From NCBI RefSeq assembly GCF_007558815.1, contig NZ_VLTJ01000004.1:62001-126000 (forward strand): DNA of 64,000 nt, read 5' to 3'. The notes beneath the pieces are model-generated. The model had not been told where the DNA came from. It did no database searches and saw nothing but the letters and a program-made list of their open reading frames with translations. This document shows, piece by piece, positions 7,152-25,831 of this stretch. The number at the start of each line of letters is the position of its first letter. Within the stretch, counting starts at the first letter, position 1. A program made the translations under genes and the position numbers. The stretch comes from Verticiella sediminum (GTDB lineage: Bacteria > Pseudomonadota > Gammaproteobacteria > Burkholderiales > Burkholderiaceae_B).

Positions 7152-7850
7152 ATGCCCGAGCTCATGCTCATTCCCGGGCTGAACAACACCGGCGACGTGT
7201 TTGCCGGCGTGGTTCAGGCCCTGCCTGTCGGCGTGACGGCGCATTGCCCGAGCTGCCCACCGCTCGAGCGCGTCGAGGCGATCGCCGACGCCTTGCTGGA
7301 AACGGCGCCGGAGCGCTTCTTTCTCGCCGGCTTTTCGTTCGGCGGCTACGTCGCGCTGGCCATGCTGGCGCGGGTGCCGCAGCGCGTCGCCGGCATTGCG
7401 CTGATCTGCAGCGATTCCGGTGCCGATACGCCGGCGCAGCGCGAACGCCGCCGCGCGGCCCGGCAGCGGGCAGCGGACGGCGAATACGAAGCCATGATCG
7501 AGGCCCAGGCCGGCAACGCCTTTCACCCCGCCAGCCTGGCGCGCCCCGACCTGCTGGCGGCGCGCCGGCGCATGGTGAGCGACTACGGGGCAGAGCGGTT
7601 CATCGCGCACACCGAGGCGGTCATGCAGCGGCCGGATCGCACGGGGCTGCTCGACGGCTTGCGCCCGACCCTGTTCGTGGCGGCGTCGGACGATGCGGTG
7701 TTCCCGCCCGCCGGCGTGCAGGCGCGCGCGGCCGCGGTGCCGGGTGCGCAGTACGTGTGCCTGCCGGACGCGGGGCATCTGCTGCCCATGGAGCAGCCAC
7801 GGGCGCTGGCGGACGTGCTCGCGGCATGGGTATCGGCCCGGCGCGGCTGA
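7152..7850 (+). CDS. Alpha/beta-fold hydrolase
   Basis: This is a 232-residue alpha/beta hydrolase. The start MPELMLIPGLNNTGDVF was chosen because it gives the normal first beta strand and lies 7 bases after the oxygenase stop, so the two are probably translated together. The nucleophile elbow is LAGFSFGGYVA. The acid is in AASDDAVFPP and the His in DAGHLLPME. It has no signal peptide. It probably acts on an ester, thioester or lactone downstream of the oxygenase. Confidence 0.83.
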   Translation: MPELMLIPGLNNTGDVFAGVVQALPVGVTAHCPSCPPLERVEAIADALLETAPERFFLAGFSFGGYVALAMLARVPQRVAGIALICSDSGADTPAQRERRRAARQRAADGEYEAMIEAQAGNAFHPASLARPDLLAARRRMVSDYGAERFIAHTEAVMQRPDRTGLLDGLRPTLFVAASDDAVFPPAGVQARAAAVPGAQYVCLPDAGHLLPMEQPRALADVLAAWVSARRG

Positions 7851-7902
7851 CCGCCGGCCGGGCCGCGCAGGCCGGCGTGCTGCTGCTCGACATGCCTCGC
7901 AT

Positions 7903-8640
7903 CTATAGTGTCAGCCGCTTGAACCATGCCTCCGGCACGGCCTTGACCAGCCACATGATGGGCGCCCACCAGCCCGGCACATAGGCCACGTTGCGCTTGC
8001 CGTCGATGGCGCGCAGCACGCCATCGGCGACCCGTTCGGGCGTGCTCCACAGCTTGCCCTTGGGGCGGGTGGCCATCATCGGCGTGTCGACGAAGCCTGT
8101 CTTTATCGTGACGACGTGCGCGCCGCAGTGGTAGAGGCGGTTGCGCAAGCCTTGCAGAAAGACGCCCAGCGCCGCCTGGCCGGCGCCGTGGACGTAGTTC
8201 GACTGGCGTCCGCGGTCGCCGTCGATGCAGGTCAGCACGGCAAGCGTGCCGTAGCGTTGCCGCTCGCACGCGTTGGCCAGGCGGGTGAGCAGGGCAATCA
8301 CGCTGAAGGCGTTGACGCCGAGCGACTCCAGCGCCAGGGCGACGCTGGCTTCGCTCTCGCGCTGATCGGGCAGCACGCCGTAGGCGAGCAGGGCGACATC
8401 GAAGCCGCTCAGGCCATCGATCGCGGTATCGATGGCCTGGGTCTGGGCATCGATGTCGCTCGCCTCGAAGTACGCGGTGTGTACCTCGCTCGCGCCGGCC
8501 TCGCGCAGGCCTTGGGCGACGATCTCGAGCCGGTTGCGGTCGCGCGCGAGCAGGTAGAGGCGGCCGCCTTTGCGGGCATACTTGCGGGCGGTTGCCTGGG
8601 CAATGGCGGACGTTGCGCCGAAGATGACGACTTTTTTCAT
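7903..8640 (-). CDS. Short-chain dehydrogenase/reductase-like protein with replaced catalytic residues
   Basis: This 245-residue protein has an SDR Rossmann fold. The nucleotide loop is KVVIFGATSAIAQATARKYA and an NNAG-like segment (LLAYGVL) is present. The catalytic region reads LAVLTCIDGDRGRQSNYVHGAGQAAL, broken here as LAVLTCIDGD and RGRQSNYVHGAGQAAL. Relatives have Ser-Ser before GDRGRQSN and a YGSAK box after NYV. Here the Ser position is Thr137/Cys138, the Tyr is H151 and the Lys is Q155. I confirmed this reading on the DNA. The protein may bind NAD(P) without classical SDR catalysis. The start MKKVVIFG was chosen for its fold. It is convergent with the hydrolase gene. Confidence 0.8.
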   Translation of the reverse strand: MKKVVIFGATSAIAQATARKYARKGGRLYLLARDRNRLEIVAQGLREAGASEVHTAYFEASDIDAQTQAIDTAIDGLSGFDVALLAYGVLPDQRESEASVALALESLGVNAFSVIALLTRLANACERQRYGTLAVLTCIDGDRGRQSNYVHGAGQAALGVFLQGLRNRLYHCGAHVVTIKTGFVDTPMMATRPKGKLWSTPERVADGVLRAIDGKRNVAYVPGWWAPIMWLVKAVPEAWFKRLTL

Positions 8641-8819
8641 GGTATGGGTTAGGGCCGGCCGGTTTCGTTTGGTTCCTGACGCAGCAAGCCGCATGCAGGG
8701 CCGTGGCGGTTTTTCCGATGCGCCGCCGGGCACTACGTAGTAGCCGCGATGCGTTAGATACGTATTGTCACAAAATGGGCGGCCAAGAAGAATGCAGGTT
8801 CTGCCTCACGGAGACAACG

Positions 8820-9620
8820 ATGAACCGACGTATCGATTGTGCGCTGCTGATGCTGCCCGCGTTCGGCGAGTGGGTGGCGGCGCCCTGGACGGAGCCGCTG
8901 CTGGGCCCGGTGCACCTGCAGGTCCTGCCGTTGTGCGAAGGCGGCGGATGGAACGGGCAGGTGCAGGCGCAGGGCTGCTATGCGCCGCAGGCCGCCATGG
9001 CGCTGTCCCGCCTGTCCCCGGCCTTGCGCCGGTTCGACCTCTGCGTGCTGCCGGTGAGCCCGGCGTCGCTCGGGTGGACGCGGGCAGCGCTGCTGGCGGC
9101 GCGTGGGCAACTGCCCGTACCGCTGCTCCTGCTCACCCGGCAGGTGTCTTCCGGCGCGGTGGGCGACCTGCTGGCGCTGGGCGCGGCGGACTTCATGCCG
9201 CAAAGCGCCCGCCACGAGGAAATCAAGGCGAGGCTGCTGCGCTGGGGTGTGCGTGCCGCACCGACGCCCGGCCTTGCGCCTTTCGGCGGCGCGGACCCGG
9301 CGAGCGCGCCGGGCGACACTTGGCTACTGAAGGCCCGCGCGCAGGGCTTTCGCGCGACGCGCAACCAGGTGCTGGAGCACTTCGAGCGCAGCTATGTCAC
9401 CGGCATGCTGGAGCGCTTTCGCGGCAACGTGACGCATGCCGCGCGCGCCGGCCAGCAGGATCGCCGCGCGTTCTGGCAGTTGATGCGCAAGCACAGCATC
9501 CTGTCGGCGGACTACCGTCGCCTCGCCATCGCCGAGGCGCACCGTGTCGACGGGAACGCGCAGCCGCCGCCCGGATGGAACCGGACTGCCGGGATCCACC
9601 CGGTACGCGCGCCATCCTGA
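8820..9620 (+). CDS. Pseudo-receiver/Fis-type helix-turn-helix regulator
   Basis: This is a 266-residue probable DNA-binding protein. Residues 5-140 look like a response-regulator receiver (RRFDLCVLPVSP, LLLLTRQVSSGAVGDLLALG, AADFMPQ), but the phosphoacceptor Asp position is Pro78 and the conserved Lys is Gln128. Residues about 180-245 match the Fis-type C-terminus of NtrC-like activators (LEHFERSYVTGMLERFRGNV, then THAARAGQQDRRAFWQLMRK). There is no AAA+ sigma-54 domain between the two. The start after GGAGACAACG was preferred to an upstream ATG at 8703. It ends 50 bases before hemE. Its targets are unknown. Confidence 0.7.
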   Translation: MNRRIDCALLMLPAFGEWVAAPWTEPLLGPVHLQVLPLCEGGGWNGQVQAQGCYAPQAAMALSRLSPALRRFDLCVLPVSPASLGWTRAALLAARGQLPVPLLLLTRQVSSGAVGDLLALGAADFMPQSARHEEIKARLLRWGVRAAPTPGLAPFGGADPASAPGDTWLLKARAQGFRATRNQVLEHFERSYVTGMLERFRGNVTHAARAGQQDRRAFWQLMRKHSILSADYRRLAIAEAHRVDGNAQPPPGWNRTAGIHPVRAPS

Positions 9621-17685: not shown

Positions 17686-18687
17686 TCATTCCGGCTGGAT
17701 GCCCGCCTTGCGGTAAATGTCCTGATAAAGCTTGAGTTCGTCGCGGATGAAGGCCTGCAACTGCTCGGGCGTGAGGTCTTCATAGTAGGCGCCCATGGCA
17801 TCGCGGTACTTGCGGCCGGTCTCGGAGTGCGAGTAGTCGGCAAGCGCTTTGCGCAATGCATCGACAGCCTCCGGCGGGGTACCCTTGTGCGCGAACATCA
17901 CGCTCCAGCCGCTCATCACGTATCCCGGGAAGCCGGACTCGATCATCGTCGGCACCTCGGGAATGACCGGGACGCGCTGGGGCGAGGTGACGGCCAGGGG
18001 CTTCATCGCGCCGCCCTGGATCTGGCCGACGACGGCCGCGGTATCGACGAACATGAAGTCGACGTGCCCGCCCATCAGGTCGGTGAGCGCCTGCGGGCTG
18101 CTCTTGTAGGGCACGTGGACGGTTTCCAGGCCGGCCTCCTGGTTGAAGCGCTCGGCGCTCGCCCGGTGCGAGGCGCTGCCGGCCGCGTAGGTGACGCTGC
18201 CGGGCGGCTTGCTGCGGATGAAGTCGACGAGCTCCTTGACCGAGCCGATCTTGTGCTTGGGCGAGACGAACAGCGCCAGCGGCGCGACCAGGCTGCGGTG
18301 GATCGGCACGAAGTCGGCCACCGGATCGTAGGGTAGCTGTTTGAACAGCACCGGGTTGGCCGCGTGCGTGGTATTGCCGGTGGAAATGATGGTGTAGCCG
18401 TCGGGCGCGGCGCGCAGGAAGTCCTGCACGCCGATGATGCCGTTGCCGCCGGGCTTGTTGTCCACGATCATCGTCCAGCCGGTCTGCTGGCTGACATAGT
18501 TGGTCATGGTGCGCACGCCGTTGTCGGTGCCGCTGCCGGCGGCGAAGGGCACGACGACGCGGATCGGCTGCTCCGGGTAGGCCGCATGGGCGAGGCCGGA
18601 CAGGCTGGCGACGAGCGCGAGGCCGAGGCCGGCAAGCCGACGGCGCAGGCGGCCGCGCAGGGCGGCGGGAGCAATGCGGTGATGCAT
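17686..18687 (-). CDS. Tripartite tricarboxylate transporter receptor, Bug/TctC family
   Basis: This is a 333-residue periplasmic receptor. The signal peptide includes RRLAGLGLALVASLSGLAHA, followed by YPEQPIRVVVPFAAGSGTDN, IVDNKPGGNGIIGVQDF and VHVPYKSSPQALTDLMGGHV. These are all Bug-family markers. It is the last gene of an operon that runs CoA-transferase, two crotonase-family enzymes, GntR regulator, receptor. The ligand is therefore probably an acid that is then CoA-activated. No TctAB channel genes are nearby. Confidence 0.93.
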   Translation of the reverse strand: MHHRIAPAALRGRLRRRLAGLGLALVASLSGLAHAAYPEQPIRVVVPFAAGSGTDNGVRTMTNYVSQQTGWTMIVDNKPGGNGIIGVQDFLRAAPDGYTIISTGNTTHAANPVLFKQLPYDPVADFVPIHRSLVAPLALFVSPKHKIGSVKELVDFIRSKPPGSVTYAAGSASHRASAERFNQEAGLETVHVPYKSSPQALTDLMGGHVDFMFVDTAAVVGQIQGGAMKPLAVTSPQRVPVIPEVPTMIESGFPGYVMSGWSVMFAHKGTPPEAVDALRKALADYSHSETGRKYRDAMGAYYEDLTPEQLQAFIRDELKLYQDIYRKAGIQPE

Positions 18688-21279: not shown

Positions 21280-22482
21280 CTAGTCGGGCGAGCGGCTGGC
21301 GCCGCAGGAGAACAGCTCGGCAATCGCCTCGTCGTCGTAGCCGGCCTCGGCGAGCAGCTCGCGGCTGTGTTCGCCCAGGCGGGGCGCAGGCTTCATGTCG
21401 GGCGGTGGCGTGCCGTGCCATTCGCTCGGTACCGCCATGGTGCGGATGCGGCCCACGCTCGGGTGTTCCGCCTCGCCGAAGAAACCGATGTCGGCCAGGT
21501 GCGGATCGTCGAGCAGGCTGTCGAAGGTGTGCATGGGGAACACCGGAATGTCGGCCTCCTTCAGCAGTTCGCGCCATTCGGCCGTGGTGCGCTCGCGCAG
21601 CGCCTCGGCGGCCATGCCGTAGAGCTCGGTGATGTGCGCGGTGCGCGTGGTGATGTTGGCAAAGCGGGGGTCGGTATCGAACAGCTCGGCCTTGCCGATC
21701 ACGCGCAGGAAGGTCTTCCAGTGGGCATCGGTGTAGATCAGGCAGCAAACGTAGCCGTCCTGCGTCTGGTAGGGCCGGCGTTCGGGCGAGAGCAGGCGCG
21801 GATAGCCGTAGCCCGCGCGCGGCGGAACGAACGTATGTCCGTACAGATGGTCGCCCATGATGTAGGGCACCATGGTCTCGAACATCGGCACGTCCACGCG
21901 CTGGCCCCGCCCGGTGCGTTCCCGCGCATACAGGGCGGCGCAGATCACGCCGAAGGCGTACAGGCCGACCGAACGGTCGGCGATGGTGATCGGCAGGTAG
22001 CGCGGAATGTCGCCGCTGCCCTCGGCCACCGCCTGCGGCAGCGCGCAGGCCGCCTGGATGAGGTCGTCGAACGCCGCCTCCGGGGCGTAGCGGCCGCGCT
22101 GCGAGAAGCCGAACATGCCGGCGTAGACGATGCCCGGGTTGACGGCGGCGACGTCCTCGTAGGCCAGACCGAGCCGCTGCATGGCGGCCGGGCGCACGTT
22201 GTAGGTGAGCACGTCGGCGGTTTCGGCGAGCCTGAGCAGGGCGGCGCGGCCCGCGGGCTGCTTGAGGTCGAGCACGATGCTGCGCTTGTTGCGGTTCAGG
22301 CCCAGAAAGAGCGGCCCCATCCGCTGGTCCCCGTTGGGGCCGATGCCGCGCACCACGTCGCCCTCGGGCGATTCGACCTTGATGACGTCCGCGCCCAGGT
22401 CGCCCAGCATCTGCGTGGCCGACGGCCCCATGAAGACATTGGTGATGTCGAGCACGCGCACGCCTTCGAGCGCTCCTGCCAT
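21280..22482 (-). CDS. CaiB/BaiF-family (class III) CoA-transferase
   Basis: This 400-residue class III CoA-transferase moves CoA between an acyl-CoA donor and a free acid, usually the activation step of a catabolic pathway. The N-terminal signature GVRVLDITNVFMGPSATQML, then GADVIKVESPEGD, is clear. The catalytic Asp can be placed in TIADRSVGLYAFG. The start MAGALEGVRVL was chosen over an upstream in-frame ATG at 22539, because the palindrome at 22509-22534 lies between them. It is the first gene of a five-gene operon that ends in a Bug receptor. Confidence 0.92.
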   Translation of the reverse strand: MAGALEGVRVLDITNVFMGPSATQMLGDLGADVIKVESPEGDVVRGIGPNGDQRMGPLFLGLNRNKRSIVLDLKQPAGRAALLRLAETADVLTYNVRPAAMQRLGLAYEDVAAVNPGIVYAGMFGFSQRGRYAPEAAFDDLIQAACALPQAVAEGSGDIPRYLPITIADRSVGLYAFGVICAALYARERTGRGQRVDVPMFETMVPYIMGDHLYGHTFVPPRAGYGYPRLLSPERRPYQTQDGYVCCLIYTDAHWKTFLRVIGKAELFDTDPRFANITTRTAHITELYGMAAEALRERTTAEWRELLKEADIPVFPMHTFDSLLDDPHLADIGFFGEAEHPSVGRIRTMAVPSEWHGTPPPDMKPAPRLGEHSRELLAEAGYDDEAIAELFSCGASRSPD

Positions 22483-22508
22483 GATGCGTCCTTTGGTCTG
22501 GCTGTATT

Positions 22509-22534
22509 GATTGAACCCATTATTGGGTTTAATC
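22509..22534. promoter_or_regulatory. Near-perfect inverted repeat upstream of the CoA-transferase operon
   Basis: GATTGAACCCA-TTAT-TGGGTTTAATC has 11-base arms with one mismatch and a 4-base spacer. It lies 27 bases upstream of the CoA-transferase start and in the divergent gap before the RAYT-like gene. It is A+T-rich within a high-G+C setting, as expected for a promoter or operator. The operon's own GntR protein is the likely ligand. Confidence 0.55.
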
Positions 22535-22667
22535 GGCACGGCAGCTATCCGTGTTTACCCGGCCGCCCGCGCCGCCACGAGGCCGGGCTGCAGCATTGGC
22601 CGTGCAAGACCGGCCGGCGGCCGTTCGGCACGCTGTGCTATACATCCGGGTTCGCATTGAGATTGCC

Positions 22668-23342
22668 ATGGCCCGCCTGCCCCGTCTTTACGGTCCCGAC
22701 ACCCCGCATCTGCTGCAGGCCCGCCTGCTCCCGCCCGAACCCTCCCAACCGCTGCGCGTGCTCGACGACTGGCAGTCCTGGGTCGCGCTCGAGGCGGAAC
22801 GCCACGGCGCCGCCGTCCATGGCTGGGCGCTGACGCCCGAGGAAATCCTGCTGCTCGCGACGCCTTCGGACGCGGATTGCCTGCGCGCGCTGATGCAGGG
22901 CCTGGGCCGGCGCATCGCGGCCCAGCGCGGCGGCGGCAAGGTCTTTGCCGCCCGCTATCATTCGGCCCTGGTCGAACCGGGAGCATGGGTGCTGCCCAGC
23001 CTGGTCTGGCTGGAAAACCTGCCCGTGCGCCATCACCATGCGCCCGATGCCGAGCATTGGCGCTGGTCGTCGGCCCATGCCCACACGGGGGCGGGCTCGC
23101 CCGGCTGGCTCACCGTGCACGCGGACTACTGGGCCTGCGGCAATACCCCGTTCGAGCGCCAGGCGCACTATCGCCGCTTGCTGCACGAGGGCCTGGGCAG
23201 CCCGGCCCAGCTACGCATCGCGCAGGCGGTGCGCGGCCAATGGGCGCTGGGTGGCCCGGCCTTCGTCGCGCGCATGGAGGAGGCCGCGAGCCGCCGCGTG
23301 CGCCCGCGCCCGCGCGGGCGTCCCCGCAAGTCGGCGGCCTGA
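22668..23342 (+). CDS. RAYT-like (REP-associated tyrosine transposase) relative lacking catalytic residues
   Basis: This 224-residue protein keeps the frame of REP-associated IS200-like transposases. It has the MARLPRLYGPDTPHLLQ start, a helical LRALMQGLGRR segment, ARYHSALVEPGAWVLPSLVW, WRWSSAHAH and a C-terminal basic RGRPRK tail. The HUH metal site (usually NHVHLL) reads TPEEILLL, with E59-I60-L61 in place of H-V-H. The catalytic Tyr of GRRYV is I83 (GRRIA). It therefore should not cut DNA, yet the frame is open and complete. A domesticated DNA-binding role is possible. The family assignment rests on recalled motif order, not on a search. Confidence 0.72.
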   Translation: MARLPRLYGPDTPHLLQARLLPPEPSQPLRVLDDWQSWVALEAERHGAAVHGWALTPEEILLLATPSDADCLRALMQGLGRRIAAQRGGGKVFAARYHSALVEPGAWVLPSLVWLENLPVRHHHAPDAEHWRWSSAHAHTGAGSPGWLTVHADYWACGNTPFERQAHYRRLLHEGLGSPAQLRIAQAVRGQWALGGPAFVARMEEAASRRVRPRPRGRPRKSAA

Positions 23343-24762: not shown

Positions 24763-25761
24763 TCAGTCCTCGGGCGCGAATCCGGTCGCCTTGACCAGAC
24801 CGGCCCAGCGCTGGCGGCTGTCGGCGACCGCCTGGGCGAACGGCTCTCCGGTCTGGCCGGACACGTCGTAGCCGGTGTCTTCCAGGCGCTTGATGACCAC
24901 GGGGTCACGGTGCACGGCCACCAGGGCCTGTTCCAGGCGTTCGCGGGTGTCGGCCGGAATCCGCGCCGGCGCCATCACGCCGAACCAGACTGTGGTCTGC
25001 AGCTCGGGCATACCGAGTTCGTCCAGTGTGGGCGTATCCGGCAGGAAGCGCGAGCGCTGTGCGCTGGTGGTGGCGATCGCGTTCAGCTTGCCGTCCTGGA
25101 TCAGCGGCAGGCTGGTCTGTATCTGCGTGAAGCCGACCAGCGCGTGGCCGCCGACCATGTCCGCCACCTGCGGTGCCGAACCGCGGTAGGGCACGTGCAC
25201 CATGTCGAGCTGGTTGCTCTCGCTCAGTTGGTAGCCGAGGAACTGGGAGGGCGTGCCCGGGCTGAACGAGGCATAGCCGGTGCCCGGATGCGCGCGCGCC
25301 CAGCCGATCAGCTCCTGCAGGGATCGCGCGGGTACGCTGGGATGGGTGGCGAGCACGAGCGGCGCCTCGACACCCTTGATGATGGGCACGAAGTCCTCGG
25401 CCTTCCAGGGCATCTGCTTGAAGGCCACCGGGTTGATTTCGACCATGGCCTGGGTACCGATCCACAGCGTGTTGCCGTCGGCCGGCTGCTGGATCACGTA
25501 TTGCGCGGCGATGTTGCCGTTGGCGCCCGACTTGTTCTCGACCAGCACGGTCTGGCCGATCTCGCGCGAGAGCGCTTCGGCAACGACGCGGGCATAGGTG
25601 TCCACGGCGCCGCCGGCGGCGGTGCCGACCACCAGCCTGACCGGCTGGCTGGCGAACTCGGCGGCGTGCGCGGCCGGTGCGAGGGCCAGGGCACAGAGCG
25701 CGCCGAGTACGATGCGGCGCATGCCCGGGCGGCAGGCGGTCTGGCGAAAAGCTTGGGACAT
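24763..25761 (-). CDS. Tripartite tricarboxylate transporter receptor, Bug/TctC family
   Basis: This is a 332-residue periplasmic receptor. The signal peptide is RRIVLGALCALALAPAAHA, followed by FASQPVRLVVGTAAGGAVDT, VLVENKSGANGNIAAQYV and VHVPYRGSAPQVADMVGGHA. The start MSQAFRQ is preferred to an ATG four codons upstream. It lies between a sulfatase and an acyl-CoA dehydrogenase gene, so a sulfated or carboxylated organic acid is a plausible ligand. No membrane partners are encoded nearby. Confidence 0.93.
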   Translation of the reverse strand: MSQAFRQTACRPGMRRIVLGALCALALAPAAHAAEFASQPVRLVVGTAAGGAVDTYARVVAEALSREIGQTVLVENKSGANGNIAAQYVIQQPADGNTLWIGTQAMVEINPVAFKQMPWKAEDFVPIIKGVEAPLVLATHPSVPARSLQELIGWARAHPGTGYASFSPGTPSQFLGYQLSESNQLDMVHVPYRGSAPQVADMVGGHALVGFTQIQTSLPLIQDGKLNAIATTSAQRSRFLPDTPTLDELGMPELQTTVWFGVMAPARIPADTRERLEQALVAVHRDPVVIKRLEDTGYDVSGQTGEPFAQAVADSRQRWAGLVKATGFAPED

Positions 25762-25831
25762 GGTCTCCTCCATGGCGTGAGCGCAACCGGTCTGGATGCC
25801 GGCTGGCGCGAGTGGATGCCGTCAACAGGCG

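Follow-up and report, generated by a model that had tools for sequence, protein, structure and literature searches.

X, a gene in the 64,000-nucleotide stretch of Verticiella sediminum DNA analysed here (the window), derives from a REP-associated tyrosine transposase (RAYT) and has lost all catalytic residues of that group. Our preferred reading, to which we give roughly two chances in three, is that X is a domesticated, catalytically dead HUH transposase that would now act as a DNA-binding regulator of gltBD, both binding and regulation being deduced from sequence. The comparison covers homology, fold, catalytic loss, purifying selection, synteny and a fixed geometry between a motif and the gltB promoter that mostly accompanies X. 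Exaptation, which an earlier note on this DNA had proposed, is well supported by full frames, purifying selection, synteny and an IS200/RAYT fold. The features of the locus are collected in Table 1.

Table 1. Features of X and of its neighbour, in window positions
Feature	Position	Strand	Basis or remark
X, catalytically dead RAYT-derived gene	22668..23342	+	224 aa; homology, fold and alignment
Codons E59-I60-L61 in place of HUH	22842..22850	+	alignment
Codon I83, conserved 'RRY' aromatic position	22914..22916	+	alignment; separate from nucleophile
Codon W114 in place of catalytic Tyr (Y115 of TnpA-REP)	23007..23009	+	alignment
Codon L118 in place of metal-ligand Asn (N119 of TnpA-REP)	23019..23021	+	alignment
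GNTPFERQ signature, residues 158-165	23139..23162	+	found in gltB-linked members, whether dead or intact
Basic C-terminal tail RRVRPRPRGRPRK, residues 209-221	23292..23330	+	intact relatives have similar tail
Presumed CoA-transferase-like neighbour gene	21280..22539	-	context only

Fold and catalytic centre

The earlier note described an intact frame on a RAYT scaffold, and both descriptions hold. The 224-aa frame has no internal stop, and a profile of 41 homologues of X matches, end to end, 10 relatives that carry HUH, Tyr, and Asn (profile-profile comparison, probability 100, E 9.9e-61). The AlphaFold2 model of X, made from an alignment 57 rows deep, has a pLDDT of 92.8 and a pTM of 0.89. 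Its best solved match by far is E. coli TnpA-REP bound to a REP hairpin (4er8; Foldseek E 7.2e-7), with a VIA Z of 14.8 over 158 residues, and the comparison with TnpA-REP that the note had suggested thus places X in the IS200/TnpA-REP fold. Thg1-like proteins and ribosomal S6 were considered as relatives and rejected, their VIA Z of only 5 to 8 being taken to reflect a common arrangement. Searched as a single sequence, X has no Y1_Tnp (PF01797) match above the cut-off in Pfam, no match in NCBIfam and nothing convincing among PDB sequences (best E 0.77). The C-terminal part, where transposases of the related TIRYT subclass have a helix-turn-helix (Bac_DnaA_C, HTH_23 or HTH_28), is modeled with helices at residues 161-174, 178-190 and 197-206 and has no Pfam HTH match at E 1. 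An AT-hook reading of the basic tail was rejected (Pfam AT_hook E 0.15, 12.4 bits against a cut-off of 17.4).

The alignments agree with the earlier note that E59-I60-L61 stands in place of HUH. The same note took I83 for the former catalytic Tyr, and this assignment is ruled out by the alignment of 4er8 together with the published spacing of N119. The catalytic mutant of TnpA-REP is Y115F according to PMC8266576, and PMC6006769 describes N119 as a ligand of the metal, some four residues beyond the catalytic Tyr. Y115 and N119 lie in DYIYINP in the alignment of 4er8, a stretch whose counterpart is YIELNPV in relatives and W114-L-E-N-L118 in X; I83 is a separate aromatic position. With W114 in the column of the catalytic Tyr and L118 in that of the Asn, the claim that all catalytic residues have been replaced stands despite the wrong residue.

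This loss is shared by the family. The 118 distinct sequences of loci L001-L181 (three of which carry titles outside Alcaligenaceae) were counted, with the five diverged sequences L091-L095 kept apart, L097, L100 and L101 set aside as other RAYTs and the short pieces L096 and L102 dropped. No sequence has a His at either HUH place, the first His position being mostly Arg and gapped in one row, and none has the Asn. At the catalytic Tyr position 117 have Trp and a single one still has Tyr. Such a fixed Trp is not what drift would give. It could mean a new pocket, and the Glu at residue 59 of X could in principle hold a metal, as would suit an X that is still an enzyme with a changed active site or a dead subunit partnering an intact Y1 transposase. 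Either arrangement is very unlikely: all three known metal ligands are missing from the 118 sequences, an acidic residue at the first His position is rare (4/118), and the window genome has no Y1_Tnp match as a possible partner.

L091-L095 likewise have no His, and their Tyr position is Phe in three, Trp in one and Tyr in one. Four of them (L091, L092, L094 and L095) belong to genus g23, where a very diverged dead copy is 30-36% identical to the X of the window and has Phe at the catalytic position in three cases and Tyr in one. Three RAYTs from elsewhere in family genomes whose catalytic part was read (L097, L100 and L101) are intact there; at L100, in genome G006 of genus g2 (probably Achromobacter), two neighboring intact-looking Y1 transposase copies (HVH, YN) lie away from gltB (G006:C48:5948-8092).

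Conservation and linkage to gltBD

Homologues of X were found in 217 of the 268 genomes of the window's family and in 37 of its 43 genera, mostly as one copy. The family profile, which also picks up other RAYTs, matches 237 of 250 genomes of family f49 (218/224 good assemblies). Over the order, 200 of 399 genomes have a match. In a 112-row tree computed with the catalytic columns excluded and the long row L243 left out, the window's family forms one clade of 58 rows (support 99), 57 of them all-dead and one partial. The tree requires at least 8 changes of the intact state by a quick method in which gain and loss are indistinguishable. Outside the family, the 40 gltB-adjacent members divide into 24 intact, 10 partly degraded and 6 wholly degraded. 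Three Burkholderia-like members of family f31 (L194, L200 and L207) have lost most catalytic residues separately, and their gltB leaders do not have the proximal motif described below.

Close pairs of X are under strong purifying selection: dN/dS is 0.014-0.283 in 21 disjoint close pairs of family relatives whose dS is below 0.7. For the two Verticiella copies, which have both been relocated, dN is 0.275 and dS 1.02, a ratio of 0.27. A set of 45 disjoint dead pairs has a median of 0.161, but it includes distant and poorly matched pairs, and reliance is placed on the 21; the median of 0.435 for 16 intact pairs comes mostly from distant ones and offers no fair comparison with the dead pairs. In sorting rows into these classes the I83 position was taken as the Tyr, which cost the dead class some of its rows. 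Neutral decay, which the earlier note had named as the outcome that would speak against its reading, is therefore not what the orthologues display. Across 41 diverse rows 25 columns are invariant. Among the family matches listed, none has an internal stop; at the match in G113 a TAG falls inside the matched stretch, and the translated frame ends after the RGRPRK tail. Some f49 matches have one in-frame stop (e.g. G873, G705 and G720). That X might be a neutral relic on its way to loss is suggested by the 51 of 268 family genomes with no match, as for a dispensable gene, although many of these genomes are small or incomplete. The dN/dS values, the full-length frames, the invariant columns and the presence in 217 genomes refute such a pseudogene, which we regard as scarcely credible.

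The commonest neighbor of X is gltB, whose cluster occurs at 111 of 162 loci, in 109 of these downstream and co-oriented, with gltD next. A gltB start lies less than 4 kb downstream of X and co-oriented at 87 of 121 family loci and at 22 of the 41 other loci of the order that were viewed (several genomes counted twice), and the location of X is thus conserved across genera, the synteny that the earlier note had proposed to look for. In some loci of other families, aroK, aroB and dgt lie upstream. The one g23 locus viewed (G142, L264) reads, by what we take the genes to be, aroK-aroB-dgt-X-gltB-gltD, so even the very diverged g23 copy sits at the same spot. The two genes also tend to occur together. 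gltB is present in 35 of 36 X-positive family genomes tested, chosen from the 217, and in 14 of 40 X-negative ones from the 51 (10/26 of the good assemblies among them), two of the 14 being only 43-46% identical. In f49, two good assemblies without X are also without gltB, and a congener of each has both. In Achromobacter loci (e.g. L108, about 7850-8850), X has, as read by eye, what seems to be a strong promoter of its own upstream (TTGACC-17-TATTTA) and a GC hairpin with a T run after its stop. Because these promoter-like and terminator-like elements make X read as its own unit, we rejected co-transcription with gltBD as the reason for the synteny.

Verticiella departs from this arrangement. 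In the window genome gltB is on another contig than X, with no X beside it, and no remnant of X was found upstream of it. The long frames flanking X in the window run on the opposite strand, so X seems to stand alone; a consensus scan of the window found no promoter and no terminator. A presumably CoA-transferase-like gene adjoins X both in the window and in the other Verticiella genome, and the relocation therefore probably predates the split of the two. On either side of X in the window lie genes for two proteins that we assume to be of the extracytoplasmic solute-binding type (17686-18687 and 24763-25773), in the same cluster as 23 others near loci.

A candidate site in the gltB promoter

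Leaders of gltB carry a repeated motif, GGG[AT]C[AG]NA. Within 400 bp upstream of gltB it is present in 94 of 95 family leaders with X adjacent (210 sites against 15.45 in dinucleotide shuffles), in 38 of 40 leaders of other families (67 against 3.65) and in 16 of 18 leaders with X elsewhere than gltB (31 against 1.75), compared with 3 of 30 order controls without gltB-linked X (3 against 4.55). Two copies 36-58 bp apart, nearly always 45-49, occur in 65/95, 25/40, 13/18 and 0/30 leaders of the four classes, respectively. The copies are also placed precisely with respect to a predicted gltB promoter, TTG-20-TAnnnT. A proximal copy begins 19-24 bp before it in 81/95, 28/40 and 13/18 leaders and in none of the 30 controls, 21 of which have such a promoter and 9 of which do not; a distal copy lies 66-70 bp before it in 70/95, 25/40, 13/18 and 1/30.

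Several properties of these counts bear on their weight. Only leaders identical over their final 120 bases were merged into one, and since gltB leaders are related by descent the counts lack independence. Two leaders whose gltB is distant (L278 and L279) were excluded from the motif counts, the class of 18 takes in L212 (from another family) and L179 (X adjacent behind an N run), and in eight of the 30 controls (L312-L319) gltB is only 33-38% identical to the query. The motif was narrower at first and was relaxed after the leaders it had missed were looked at, which makes motif and test only partly independent; at that point the leaders of genus g4 had already been viewed, the 30 controls were unexamined, and the X-negative f49 leaders were obtained later.

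The site has further structure. In 77 of 80 family leaders CC comes after a proximal copy on the + strand, which gives the site the look of a dyad in the family; in other families this holds for 2 of 5 leaders. An anchored consensus shows little conservation in the stretch that separates the two copies, a pattern that resembles what a footprint would leave. The two copies are inverted and able to pair in many leaders, which raises the possibility that the repeats work as RNA, a hairpin in the gltB leader transcript being bound by X. This is highly improbable. Other lineages have direct repeats at the same promoter distance, and both copies lie upstream of the predicted gltB -35 and -10 elements and hence outside the transcript from that promoter.

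The motif occurs also with catalytically intact members and so did not arise with the loss of catalysis. It fits the end consensus GGGG[AT][CG]A[CG] given for TIR-associated Y1 transposases (TIRYTs) in the accessible parts of PMC6006769 and PMC3733652. A copy on the + strand 25-100 bp upstream of X itself is found in 18 of 40 other-family members versus 1 of 94 in the dead family (Fisher p 2e-10, uncorrected for kinship). A scan of 400 bp to each side of the window's X gave no GGG[AT]C[AG]NA site, and by this motif X is without the terminal inverted repeats with a GGGGWSAS-like core that flank a TIRYT gene. Dispersed REPIN-like copies were considered and rejected; in 9 genomes, the narrow pattern WAGGGACGYAYY and its reversed control occur with much the same frequency.

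Some leaders come from genomes in which X is missing or has moved. The six leaders of genus g4, which is without X, contain 1 site against 1.05 in shuffles and no pair; as none of the six matches TTG-20-TAnnnT, their zero for geometry is partly built in, and only the site count is informative. The X-negative leaders of G129, G149 and G150 have no site. Among those of f49, G785 and G694 have none, G867 and G836 have one each, and no pair occurs in these four. None of the informative X-negative leaders (the six of g4, G129, two incomplete g23 assemblies, G785, G867, G836 and G694) thus has a pair. Three exceptions have X undetected and the sites retained: G215, with the pair in place; G227 (89% complete), with sites including the proximal one; and G776 (87% complete), with the pair in a leader contig that ends 221 bp upstream. 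Where X is present elsewhere than gltB, G833 (f49) has kept the pair, and Verticiella, with X relocated, has retained the proximal copy in 3 of 3 leaders and a distal copy at 66-70 bp in 0 of 3; a second copy, where seen, is 131-134 bp upstream of the first. A conserved candidate site at a fixed distance from the promoter thus mostly goes with X.

These leaders also bear on the proposal that X is an exapted nucleic-acid-binding protein acting elsewhere, for example on hairpins at replication forks, and that the gltB repeats are read by another conserved regulator or are remnants of an old element. G215, with its pair and no detected X, would fit such a protein, as would the absence of a site from some degraded members (L194, L200 and L207); nine other leaders among the 40 of other families are without a proximal site. 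The first arrival beside gltB could also be a historical accident. We nevertheless consider an X acting elsewhere unlikely: the pair is missing from X-negative leaders of several separate lineages and from the 30 order controls, the motif looks like the ends published for transposases of this kind, and where X has moved away the proximal site has stayed. The suggestion of the earlier note that X is a DNA-binding protein has accordingly gained a candidate site in the gltB promoter, where binding is predicted from position and ancestry.

From transposase to candidate regulator

We propose that X goes back to a Y1 (HUH) transposase of the RAYT/TIRYT type, present in single copy and bounded by terminal repeats, which would have settled directly upstream of gltBD (glutamate synthase) in an ancestor of many Burkholderiales. 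Its gltB-side repeat could then have ended up immediately before the gltB -35 box and served there as an operator for the protein. The transposase would in this way have supplied both the protein and the end sequence that it recognizes, and selection would have kept both for regulation. In the window's family the nuclease centre (both His, the Tyr and the Asn) would then have been lost and the repeat upstream of X would have gone, while selection continued to maintain the scaffold and C-terminal region of the protein and the site nearest the promoter. Nuclease decay and loss of the far end might be expected in lineages where only regulation mattered, and X could even relocate, as in Verticiella, with the promoter site retained. 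Today X would most likely bind both sites, which lie near -59 and -104 relative to the expected transcription start, perhaps dimerizing on the dyad-like proximal one, and modulate gltBD transcription. Given the position of the sites upstream of the -35 box, an activator fits better than a repressor. From position and ancestry we infer that X binds the gltB site and activates; X as the binding factor, the sign of the regulation and an effector signal belong to this inferred part. We lean slightly towards the broader proposition that an HUH transposase here gave rise to a class of bacterial transcription factor, in which a terminal repeat would have been fixed as a nitrogen-assimilation operator while the nuclease residues remained, regulation would have been selected, and the nuclease centre would then have decayed several times over, throughout the window's family and in other lineages as well.

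Three known systems come closest to X. With TnpA-REP and the RAYTs (PF01797) it shares the fold, a single-copy gene and the landmarks of the N-terminal and YIELNPV regions; unlike them, it is without HUH, Tyr, and Asn, has no Pfam Y1_Tnp match on its own, and has a long C-terminal part (224 aa compared with 165 aa in 4er8). The TIRYTs, or TnpA-Y1 subclass 2.1, resemble X and its relatives in their long C-terminal extension and in the GGGGWSAS-type repeats near gltB-linked members (accessible text of PMC3733652 and PMC6006769), but those described in PMC3733652 retain HUH and Tyr. The domesticated RAYTs of REPIN systems are, as far as the text of PMC8049555 goes, single-copy, vertically inherited and of unknown exact function. 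X is like them in the first two respects, but they actively replicate REPINs, whereas X is without catalytic residues and the narrow motif is roughly as common as its reversed control in the 9 genomes. That RAYTs are single-copy, vertically inherited domesticated transposases is thus already known.

What appears to be new is a conserved RAYT family that has none of the catalytic residues and whose likely target is a fixed host promoter. Among titles and abstract beginnings, with few subscription papers covered, we found nothing linking a RAYT-like gene to gltB and no description of a conserved dead RAYT family. Of 924 sequences, a 2018 survey kept the 722 whose core motifs were complete, and it took motif absence as a sign of non-functional proteins (PMC6006769). 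The sequences without HUH and Tyr analysed here, in contrast, are strongly conserved, and one repeat is fixed relative to a host promoter. The host role of domesticated RAYT-type transposases is presented as an open question in the text of PMC8049555. At one locus, nature has provided members in every state, intact, partly degraded and fully dead, with a promoter element that mostly accompanies the gene, making the question directly testable on one promoter. If a transposase did become a transcription factor here, this would explain in concrete terms the persistence of RAYT-type genes in single copy and by vertical inheritance.

A further pair of repeats was seen away from gltB in Verticiella sp. 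GG226 (G226), which falls in one genus group with the window. At L323, about positions 803-846 (G226 contig C51), a near-perfect inverted pair, TGGTGCGTCCCTT...TAAGGGACGCACCA, lies in an apparently intergenic region. This second pair region has no match in the three pieces of the window genome with which it was compared. The pair could possibly be a second target of X.
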